A stretch of 34,785 nt of DNA from positions 1 to 34,785 of the forward strand of contig JACQYL010000109.1 of the NCBI GenBank assembly GCA_016208165.1, read 5' to 3'. A program made the position numbers and the translations under genes. The notes under the pieces were generated by a model. That model made no database searches, had not been told where the DNA came from, and was given only the letters and a program-made list of their open reading frames with translations. Of this stretch, positions 136 to 3,099 are shown one piece after another. How positions within the stretch are numbered: position 1 is the stretch's first letter; each line of letters starts with the position of its first letter. The stretch comes from Deltaproteobacteria bacterium (GTDB lineage Bacteria; Desulfobacterota; Desulfarculia; JACQYL01).

Positions 136-1600
136 TTATGACCTGCTCCCCAATCGGTGGGTGCATTCGGGACGGTGAAGCAGGATCAGCATGACTTTTG
201 AGTTGGCTATCCCGCCGATGAAATATTCCAGGAAATCCTCCGTTGTTTGGTCGATCCAATGGAGGTCCTCAATGGCCAGGATAAGGACCTTGTTCTTACT
301 GGTTCTGATCAACAGGTTTCTGAGTCCCTCGAAAATCTCTCTCTTTCTCCGTTTCGGTTCGAGTTGGAGATAGCTTTCATCCTCCACCTTGAGCGACATA
401 AGATCCAAGAGCGGGGGCAGTTCATCCGTGAGCTTTTCATCGAGCTGCGTAATCTTTTCTGTCACCCGCTCCCCGATGGTTGTTTCGCGCTCGCCCTCCT
501 CAACGCCAAAATAGGACCTCAATATCTCGAGGACAGGCAGGTAAGGCATGGTTCCGCCGAAGTGGATGCAGCGGCCTTCCAGATAAGTTGATTCTTCTCG
601 GGAAAGCCGGTTCCTGAATTCCCAAAAAAGCCTGGACTTGCCGACCCCCGCCTCCCCCACGATCCCCACCACTTGACCCGAGCCGTTCCGCGCCTTCTCG
701 TACGCCTCCATAAGGGCGGCCATGGAATTTTCCCGGCCCACGAACTTCGTCAACCCCCTTGCCGCAGCCGCCTCGATCCTCGTTGCCGCCACCGACTTTG
801 ATCAGCTCAAATACCTCCTGGGGCTCGGCCTTCCCCTTTACCTCCACCTTGCCAAGGGTTCTCAAGTTGAAGTAATCCTTAACGAAACGGTAGGTGTTAT
901 TGGAGACAAGGACGGTCCCGGGCTCAGCCAGACTCTCCATGCGGGAAGCGAGGTTTGTCGTGTCCCCATCGGCGGTGTAGTCCATGCGGAGGTCGTCTCC
1001 GATGGCGCCCACGATCACTGTCCCTGAGTTGAGGCCCATGCGCATCTTGAACGTGACCCCGTACTCTTTCGCGACCCTCTTTCCGTATTCTTCCATAGCC
1101 TTCTGTATGGAAAGAGCTGCGTGACAGGCCCGGCCGGCATGGTCCTCGTGCGCCACCGGGGCCCCGAAAAGCGCCATCACCCCGTCTCCGGTAAACTGAT
1201 TGATGGTCCCCTCATACTTGTGGACCTCATCCATCAGGATTTTGAAGCACCCGTCCATGATCCGGTGGACGTCTTCAGGGTCCAGCTTTTCGGACATGGC
1301 GGTGAAATTGGCCACATCCGCGAAGAGAACGGTGACCAGCTTCCGCTCCCCCTCCATAGCGCTTTTCGACGTGAGGATCTTCTCCGCCAGATGTTTCGGT
1401 GTCTAGGATCGAGGGGCCCGGTAGTCGACCTGCAAAGCTTCTTTTGGCTTCTCCAGGGCCTGTCCGCACTCGCCGCAGAACTTGTCGCCGGGGAGGTTTT
1501 CGGCGCCGCATTCCGAGCAAATAAGCAGGAGCTTTGCTCCACAATCACGGCAGAATTTCCTGGTTGGAGGATTGTCTGTTTGACAGGATGGACATTTCAT
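136..1600 (-). pseudogene. Broken zinc-ribbon / class III adenylate cyclase / AAA ATPase signalling protein
   Basis: Read on the minus strand from ATG at 1600, the product starts with a double zinc ribbon (CPSC..CRDCG, CSECG..CGECG). An in-frame TAG (1405-1403) then falls where relatives usually have Tyr before a TPKHLAEKIL stretch. After it the same frame gives a complete class III nucleotide cyclase domain (ERKLVTVLFADVANF, TGDGVMALFGAP, GDTTNLASRMESLA). Near 790-800 the reading frame must slip by one base to continue into an AAA/LuxR-like ATPase part with a good Walker A (GEAGVGKS) and the AIEDLHWID Walker B. This part stops at a TAA (138-136), where relatives read Tyr and go on for several hundred residues. 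Beyond the TAA I see no homologous sequence. Nonsense, frameshift and C-terminal loss together make inactivation the best explanation. Intact relatives are roughly 1,000 residues or more; about 490 are recognisable here. Confidence 0.85.
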
Positions 1601-1912: not shown

Positions 1913-2485
1913 TCAGACCCATTCCGGGGCAGGTTTTAATCCAGTCCCTAAGACAAGAGCCGGATTTTCCCGATCCATTTCCCGTTGTGCAGGGTTATTG
2001 GCGATGTATTCCCGGATGCGGTTCAGTTCCTCGTCATTGCGGATGATGTGTTCGTAATAATTGCGCTGCCATATCTTGATGCCGGGGGTGTCGCGCAGAT
2101 GGTTGATGCGTTTTGTAGATACCGCTTTGAATGCGCCGACCAAACGACCGATGGGTTTGCGTTGTTTTGTAGGGGCGGTTCGCGACCAGGCTTCGCTGTG
2201 CTATGCCGTGGCGCGACCGCCCTTAACAACGTCGGCAATAACGATAATGCCATGCAAATGATTGGGCATGATCATCCGTTCGTCCAATTCCACGTAACCG
2301 TGTTTCGTCGCCAACCATTCCCACGACTCGGCAACCGTTTCGCCGAACTGGTTCAACGTCGTTTTTCCGTTCACGGCGTCCCCGAACAGACATTCCCGGT
2401 CCCAGGCGCAAATGGTCACGAAATAGACCCCGGCCTGTGAATAATCGTATCCGTGCAATCGGATGGATCGGCGGTTATGTTGCAT
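1913..2485 (-). pseudogene. REP-associated tyrosine transposase (RAYT, IS200/Y1 family), interrupted by an amber codon
   Basis: ATG at 2485 opens a RAYT-like protein: an RRSIRLHGYDYSQAGVYFVT start, the HUH metal-binding motif in MPNHLHGIIVI, and the C-terminal Y1 catalytic region (KIWQRNYYEHIIRND) followed by the usual REYIANNP tail. All of it lies in one frame of 191 codons, interrupted once by TAG at 2203-2201. That codon sits in the loop of a REP-like palindrome (2173-2222) embedded in the gene. RAYTs are single-copy domesticated Y1 transposases that act on REP hairpins. Here a REP copy within the gene appears to have cut it in two, so activity is doubtful unless the amber is suppressed. 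A second palindrome lies just 5' of the start codon. The amber might be read through, but I see no evidence for that. Confidence 0.85.
2173..2222. repeat. REP-like imperfect palindrome inside the RAYT gene
   Basis: Arms 2173-2191 (GGGCGGTTCGCGACCAGGC) and 2205-2222 (GCCGTGGCGCGACCGCCC) pair imperfectly around a short loop that holds the in-frame amber codon of the RAYT. It shares the outer TGTAGGGGCGGTTC sequence with the palindrome at 2501-2524, in opposite orientation. Confidence 0.7.
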
Positions 2486-2500
2486 CGATTTCCGTTCCAA

Positions 2501-2520
2501 GGGCGGTTCGTGAACCGCCC
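2501..2520. repeat. REP-like perfect palindrome 5' of RAYT
   Basis: GGGCGGTTC and GAACCGCCC form a perfect 9-bp stem around a 2-base centre (GT), 15 bp upstream of the RAYT start codon at 2485. With the copy at 2173-2222 it forms an inverted pair, the kind of hairpin a RAYT recognises. Confidence 0.75.
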
Positions 2521-2712
2521 CTACAGACCGGCCGTCGTTCATGCTATTATTCTCTGATCAAAAGGGCCACGTCTGCCCCCTGATTTTTGTAAAGGTCTCT
2601 TTTTGATCATTGTTGGAGTCGGCTGCCAACAGCCCGGTACGCTCCCATTTCGCTCCCGATCCAAAAAAATACGCTAACTGCACTGGAGCGGAATGATGCG
2701 CATATCTGCATT

Positions 2713-2740
2713 ACAAAATTATATGCAGCTTTTGTGCCAA
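2713..2740 (-). promoter_or_regulatory. Predicted sigma-54 (-24/-12) promoter
   Basis: On the minus strand TTGGCAC (2740-2734) is followed after five bases by CTGCA (2728-2724). The GG and GC doublets have the strict spacing of RpoN promoters (GG-N10-GC). The transcription start would fall near 2713. It points toward the RAYT, but the next 200 bases hold no convincing gene start. About 45 bases downstream a short GC-containing hairpin runs into seven T residues (about 2669-2663), so a very short transcript is possible. Confidence 0.5.
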
Positions 2741-2802
2741 TTGCAATAACAGATTCATGTCACTTGGATTCTTCCATTTCGGGCCAAGGTGGATACATGG
2801 AG

Positions 2803-2858
2803 ATTGCTCAGAAATTGAGCAATTGCCGAACCCCTGTTGCTCAATAATTGAGCAACAG
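2803..2858. promoter_or_regulatory. Pair of palindromic operators (putative enhancer-binding-protein sites)
   Basis: Two related palindromes occur: ATTGCTCA-N5-TGAGCAAT (2803-2823) and CTGTTGCTCAA-TAA-TTGAGCAACAG (2834-2858). Their centres are 33 bp apart (three helical turns) and lie about 100 and 133 bp upstream of the start predicted for the sigma-54 promoter at 2740-2713. That geometry is typical of paired activator sites for a sigma-54 enhancer-binding protein. The regulator is not in this window. Confidence 0.6.
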
Positions 2859-3099
2859 GCCCTCACACAGGCTTCGCTGCGCTCCCCGCTTCGCTAGGCT
2901 ACGCCGGGCAAAATGCCGGGCAAGCCCCTGACCTCTTCCCCTTCGACAAGCTCAGGATCCTTGACAGAGGGCGAGGGAGTATATGTCCGGATGTTTGGGG
3001 TGGAGAAGGGAAGGTTATGGGATTCGGATCAGACACAAGCTGCGGTATAGCCCCGGACCACCCGCCAAATTCACCATCCTTGCCAATCTTACCTTTCTG
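2859..3099. other. Gene-free stretch with repeat-like fragments
   Basis: No gene is visible. Near 2870 a fragment (AGGCTTCGCTGCGCT) resembles the REP loop at 2190. Near 2940 a CCTTCGACAAGCTCAGGA sequence looks like a widespread intergenic repeat of environmental bacteria. Both suggest a repeat-rich, decaying region. Confidence 0.35.

Follow-up and report, generated by a model that had tools for sequence, protein, structure and literature searches.

A repeated sigma-54-type control region linked to a RAYT-like transposase family in a deltaproteobacterial genome

What does a sigma-54 promoter with two palindromes upstream of it control when it appears to stand alone? The question is raised by a locus in a window of 34,785 nt (the whole stretch of DNA analysed here) from a Deltaproteobacteria bacterium (GCA_016208165.1, contig JACQYL010000109.1; C109 among the copies named below). 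The first-pass annotation described an orphan promoter that could drive a small RNA or be the leftover regulatory region of a lost gene. We propose, at a probability of roughly 0.7, that it governs a RAYT-like transposase family present in many copies, and that it is driven by an NtrC-class activator together with sigma-54.

The two palindromes are exact in the window (TTGCTCAGAAATTGAGCAA at 2804-2822 and TTGCTCAATAATTGAGCAA at 2837-2855), lie 33 bp apart, and have their centres 100 and 133 bp upstream of the predicted transcription start. They precede a promoter with GG at −24 and GC at −12 (Table 1). Positions, spacing and orientation of all three elements agree with the first reading of the locus. 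No protein site was identified in the spacer between the proximal palindrome and the promoter. Once mismatches are allowed, the window motifs fall within chance (palindromes with up to 3 mismatches, 2 found and 1.13 expected; promoter-like pattern allowing 2 mismatches, 10 observed against 14.8 expected), so that their significance rests on the genome-wide scan.

Table 1. Features of the locus in window coordinates.
Feature	Position	Strand	Remarks
Palindrome 1, distal operator, consensus TTGCTCAATTATTGAGCAA	2837..2855	−	0.894 mean pairwise column identity, 15 copies
Palindrome 2, proximal operator, consensus TTGCTCAATTTCTGnGCAA	2804..2822	−	0.887 column identity, 15 copies
Spacer, palindrome 2 to promoter	2741..2803	−	partly conserved, 0.658 column identity, 15 copies
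Sigma-54 promoter TTGGCACAAAAGCTGCA, −24 GG / −12 GC	2724..2740	−	GG in 14/15, GC in 14/15 copies
Sigma-70-like hexamers TTGCAA-17-TATAAT, overlapping the sigma-54 promoter	2718..2746	−	−10 absent from most other copies
Predicted +1	2713	−	inferred from −12 position
Untranslated leader, 171 nt	2543..2713	−	full-length alignment with four other RAYT copies; three further copies have a shorter leader
RAYT-like transposase, first part, 113 aa, HxH motif (NHLHG)	2201..2542	−	ends at in-frame TAG 2201-2203
RAYT-like transposase, second part, same frame, tyrosine region (NYYEHIIR)	1913..2143	−	reading frame
REP-like GTAG inverted repeat, arm at RAYT 5′ end	2508..2525	+	inverted-repeat pair I1
REP-like GTAG inverted repeat, arm inside RAYT frame	2168..2185	+	inverted-repeat pair I1

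The pattern TTGCTCAN{3,6}TGAGCAA has 9 matches at 7 loci in the 5.69-Mb genome, and the reversed-pattern control has 0. At all seven loci a −24/−12 promoter with matching orientation begins about 116 bp from the first base of palindrome 1; a regular expression found six of these promoters, and the one at C6 (TTGGTAC) was found by eye. The check suggested in the first-pass annotation, a search of the genome for palindrome pairs before −24/−12 promoters, thus gives a positive result. A sequence-only profile built from these loci and searched against the same genome gave 49 matches at E ≤ 1, of which 16 have E < 1e-17. These 16 strong copies lie on C109 (the window), C28 (two), C34, C6, C85, C3, C71, C87, C59 (two), C45, C38, C97, C24 and C122. 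Among the weaker matches are divergent or partial copies at C31, C122:19369, C2, C133, C28:68917 and C88, and the remainder are the same palindromes on the opposite strand plus weak ones. The genome also has a sigma-54 gene (PF04552 match at C131, E 2.3e-62).

We examined conservation in 15 of the 16 strong copies, omitting the truncated C59:3357. The palindromes have mean column identities of 0.894 and 0.887 and the promoter 0.791, compared with 0.489 for the stretch separating the palindromes, 0.658 for the one from palindrome 2 to the promoter and 0.537 for the sequence that follows the promoter (palindromes against the spacers at 0.489 and 0.658: Mann-Whitney p 2.5e-7 and 1.4e-7). The same holds in the 7 copies with a RAYT (palindromes 0.90 and 0.92, spacers 0.47 and 0.64; p 2.5e-9 against both) and in the 8 without one (palindromes 0.88 and 0.86, spacers 0.51 and 0.66; p 1.7e-6). 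Palindrome 2 starts 82 bp from the promoter in 14 of 14 measured copies (C6 left out), the distance between palindromes is 33 bp in 11 copies and 32 bp in 4, and the GG and the GC are each present in 14 of 15. The paired dyads are thus held at a constant phase from the promoter, as in an upstream activator site for a bEBP. The operators, the promoter and their spacing are thus shown by conservation, and the description of the locus as a complete enhancer-dependent control region is supported in copies with and without a RAYT; the sigma-54 gene and the looser host sites of the same design described below give it further support. Common descent from one ancestor accounts for part of this conservation; in the account given below, selection would have preserved the operators and the promoter whether or not a transposase gene follows.

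The term orphan does not fit this promoter, since the same module precedes RAYT genes or remnants, on the same strand, in 7 of the 16 strong copies (C109, C34, C6, C28:35369, C59:4538, C97 and C122) and at the half copy on C2. Because the module precedes RAYT at these other copies, the RAYT downstream, which the first-pass annotation treated as a neighbour, is the likely target of the window promoter as well, and the idea of a region left over from a lost target gene is not supported. The part of that idea that concerns decay is a fair point, as the window RAYT has an in-frame TAG. This stop codon falls in the longer, middle GTAG inverted repeat, and the GTAG inverted repeats (window 2168-2225 and 2508-2525) lie inside the RAYT frame and are translated as protein. 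Inverted repeats of the GTAG-tagged REP form, GTAGGGGCGG...CCGCCC, are present in the 5′ region of the RAYT. Next to the RAYT is a gene that reads as adenylate cyclase/ATPase-like (window 136-1357, minus strand) and is apparently split by a frame change.

An intact RAYT-like protein of 200 aa, with both NHLHG and NYYEHIIR, is encoded at C28a. It is similar to NCBIfam REP_Tyr_transpos (NF047646; E 1.9e-12), where its 47.3 bits are under the curated cut-off of 80, and we therefore call it RAYT-like. It scores only 12 bits against Pfam Y1_Tnp; a Y1_Tnp scan of the genome missed the family and matched five other places, and a PDB sequence search gave no match. The protein has 18 tblastn matches in the genome, fragments included. 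Ten of them, at 9 loci, have no module profile match nearby (C29, C21 in two pieces, C2:31786, C139, C26, C78, C97:18855, C106 and C16), some of which are truncated or reach the end of a contig. Two stop-free copies have lost the first His of HxH (NRLHG in C59a, NRVHG in C122), and together with the in-frame TAG of the window this indicates that much of the family may be dead.

The sequence between promoter and gene bears on two further readings. A small RNA made from the leader and ended by a T7 hairpin had been suggested in the first-pass annotation, and the seven T residues are indeed at 2663-2669 behind a drawable 3-bp stem, but the folding is no better than that of shuffled sequence (z −0.21) and no terminator-like site was found at 2400-3000. 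The leaders of C109, C2, C97, C6 and C122 align together at full length, and only two of these five have the T7 (the window and C97), with TTTCTTT in C2, C6 and C122; four RAYT leaders fold with z −1.1. In C34, C28 and C59 the leader is mostly absent, internal DNA being missing, while promoter and gene are still together. An Rfam search of the window gave no match. Three leaders of the non-RAYT kind give a weak consensus fold (z −2.7 against shuffled columns), which speaks somewhat for such an RNA, though three sequences are too few to rely on; we consider this reading very improbable. We give equally little credence to a sigma-70 promoter that, with a regulator at the palindromes, would drive the RAYT while the GG and GC are there by chance. 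The window does match TTGCAA-17-TATAAT at 10 of 12 positions (2746-2718), and TTGCAA or TTGCAT stands at that place in 12 of 15 copies, yet TATAAT is exact in just 1 of the 15 aligned rows (2 of 15 when a single-base gap in the alignment is removed by eye, with TAnnnT then in about 8), against 14 of 15 for each of the sigma-54 dinucleotides.

Nine strong copies have no RAYT behind them. The copy at C28:69202 is followed by a protein with an ABC-3C domain CTD10 (over the Pfam cut-off) and then by a Lamassu/PDC-M68B-like ATPase that is truncated where the contig ends. Behind C85 are a protein with weak likeness to ZacA and a PLD protein of ZacB type (Zacharias-like), and behind C24 a HicB-like gene (under cut-offs) and HicA (over the cut-off). 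Two consecutive HicB-HicA-like pairs lie behind the module copy at C24 (L080:303-1728). The AAA-TPR protein behind C38, which has no PADLOC match and only TPR proteins as matches in the PDB, and the SEC-C protein behind C59:3357 are only possibly defence-related. The frame directly behind C71 is an unknown one, and genes for a Cytotoxic-domain protein and an M78 peptidase lie over 1.5 kb further on; C3 leads to a hybrid sensor kinase, C45 to an unknown 156-aa protein, and C87 to no clear gene. In three of the nine copies, then, one of the first two genes belongs to a named defence or toxin-antitoxin family; another three are suggestive, and the last three are not. Two RAYT copies also have such neighbours behind them: GmrSD/NsnA, HEPN and DUF3800 genes lie at C122, and an FRG gene at C28a. 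The non-RAYT leaders of C28b, C85 and C38 have about 160-200 nt of non-coding sequence in common after the promoter. Further on comes another palindromic motif, GTCAAG...AGACTTGAC in type, exact at C28 and similar by eye at C85 and C24.

Ten genes examined on the opposite side of six loci have housekeeping or metabolic roles, with a DUF among them. PADLOC matched 9 of 10 downstream proteins and 0 of 10 upstream proteins, a contrast that is biased because the ten downstream proteins were hand-picked, from C28b, C85, C38, C59b, C122 and C28a; C3, C24, C45, C71 and C87 lie outside this set. Ordinary window genes match PADLOC too, 4 of 10 at E ≤ 0.01 (p 0.057 against the downstream proteins), and at E < 1e-15 the counts are 4 of 10 downstream and 2 of 10 in the window (p 0.63), so these comparisons do not establish a statistical enrichment of defence genes.

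Sites of the same general design are also present before host genes. Three looser operator-promoter patterns gave 11, 12 and 6 matches (overlapping sets), with 0, 0 and 0 in the reversed controls. The half-site CTCAATTT followed by a −24/−12 promoter occurs, beyond the module copies, at C41, C88, C133, C31, C45:105073 and C82, and two weak profile matches, C33 and C123, have palindromes and a promoter by eye. Others have palindromes and no evident promoter (C34:2747 and C39) or a promoter and no palindromes (C108). At C108 (L138:2405-2504) a clear −24/−12 promoter without palindromes accompanies a type IV pilin-like gene (by reading). The C31 site leads to a chemoreceptor (Pfam), the C33 site to a response-regulator frame (by reading), and the C133 site to a FecR/LysM gene 571 nt away and then to CHASE2 and kinase frames (by reading); contig ends lie behind the sites at C82 and C88. 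Between the divergent genes at C33 (L136), the two operator-like palindromes are inverted relative to each other and separated by about 80 bp.

The C123 site points to a candidate activator. The final codons of an NtrC-family response regulator gene there overlap one palindrome, and the second follows the stop; a good −24/−12 promoter comes next, leading to a 184-aa protein that looks receiver-like and has no NCBIfam match. The spacings are wider than in the module. NtrC/AtoC models of NCBIfam match the regulator over nearly its full length, and GAYTGA is found by reading. Because the operators and promoter adjoin its gene, this response regulator is the best candidate and would be the most likely activator, a choice based solely on gene neighbourhood. 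Near the C133 operon there is a second regulator fragment. Among the matches listed from relatives, the best are 36-45% identical to the C123 regulator, which resembles the level of paralogues in its own genome, and no activator orthologue was identified there.

Following the known sigma-54 mechanism, an NtrC-class enhancer-binding protein would bind the two phased palindromes and, by looping, open the closed RNA polymerase-sigma54 complex at the −24/−12 promoter. The RAYT-like transposase would then be transcribed only when the activator is switched on. On the simplest account, a lineage-specific activator controls host sensory genes through sigma-54, and the presence of sites of the same type before such genes suggests that the circuit is the host's own and was captured by the element. 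The RAYT-like family would have acquired one host control region, and the unit would then have dispersed, presumably spread by the RAYT. In copies without a RAYT the adjoining gene, in several cases a defence or toxin-antitoxin gene, may have been placed under the same activator, a weaker part of the proposal. In a bolder version, a RAYT-spread enhancer-promoter cassette brings incoming defence and toxin-antitoxin genes under a two-component regulon for sensing and motility, and transposition and anti-phage functions are then turned on jointly by one NtrC-class activator; we regard this version as unlikely.

Two other explanations concern the repeat itself. The family may simply be decaying, a RAYT element having once carried this promoter, spread, and now being in the course of dying, with the defence genes marking junctions of accessory DNA. 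The broken RAYT genes, the partial modules at C2, C28:68917 and C59:3357 and the upstream repeats common to some copies all agree with this, as does the lack of a clear excess of PADLOC matches downstream over ordinary window genes. It is weakened by the 8 copies without a RAYT, in which operators and promoter are better kept than the spacers, because neutral decay would not favour them; we see it as possible, if somewhat unlikely. Alternatively, the palindromes could be hairpins recognised by the RAYT itself, like REP ends, and the resemblance to sigma-54 regions incidental. RAYTs act on hairpins (PMC8266576), and the unit is dispersed beside RAYT genes. The known REP form, GTAG followed by a palindrome, exists separately in the RAYT 5′ region, however, and GTAG stands directly before the palindrome in 0 of 15 copies, the nearest being about 10 nt before palindrome 2 in C59a. 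Moreover, the −24/−12 bases are kept in 14 of 15 copies, palindrome 2 holds its distance to the promoter, and host loci without a RAYT have the same design. This explanation appears quite improbable to us, and a sigma-54 control region of the RAYT-like family is the account that we favour.

The link between this control region and a RAYT was seen in this genome only, as RAYT relatives (31-55% identity, 19 named records from many phyla) have no module, and the 16 relatives that were checked have no strict sigma-54 site in the up to 700 nt upstream. The module was found in 0 of 59 other genomes of the same class, none of them a nearer relative, with the best 50 candidates scored per genome, and among 395 genomes of the phylum in its own genome only, with the best 7 candidates scored per genome; both scans used stricter filters, by which weak matches are lost. 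One genome of the phylum set (G302) has a weak match to the promoter half and no palindromes. A search of viral contigs with one exact pattern gave 0 matches, and phages and plasmids gave no module match at E 0.1.

This arrangement can be set beside several known systems. Sigma-54-dependent promoters with upstream activator sites for NtrC-class proteins, for example those of the Desulfovibrio vulgaris sigma-54 regulome (PMC4641369), have the same −24/−12 promoter, paired dyads about 100-130 bp upstream and an activator gene beside a target. The window operator does not appear in the passages of that study that were compared, and the targets here differ in being a transposase family and accessory genes, with one region repeated about 16 times. 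The transposase resembles RAYT/TnpA-REP systems with GTAG REPs (PMC2817692, PMC8266576 and PMC8049555) in its HxH and Tyr regions and in the GTAG inverted repeats in the 5′ region of the gene. RAYTs are described in one of these accounts as single-copy, vertically inherited genes (PMC8049555), whereas here there are 18 matches, fragments included, in one genome, together with a conserved sigma-54 control region. Mobile promoters of prokaryotes (Matus-Garcia 2012 and van Passel 2014, as cited in PMC8049555) are likewise short dispersed sequences that bear a promoter; the present module differs in being a complete two-operator enhancer with a sigma-54 promoter that would answer to one activator. 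In RtcR-linked CoCoNuT operons a sigma-54 activator has been proposed to switch on defence genes (PMC11090510). The CARF-type activator gene lies within the operon in that case, whereas here one activator would act in trans on scattered copies. Among the matches listed from the open-access literature, we found no sigma-54-controlled RAYT and no case of defence genes at scattered sites under sigma-54.

Weak or hidden promoters usually keep transposases silent. A transposase family with a complete activator-dependent control region would instead be expressed only on a particular signal, and in dispersing it would seed control by that signal before other genes. The module offers a concrete case for the growth of a regulon by dispersal of a ready-made enhancer, and for a possible route by which sigma-54 might come to control defence genes in trans. 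Recurrence of the on-switch points to mobile DNA as the agent that spread one of the host's own signalling circuits.
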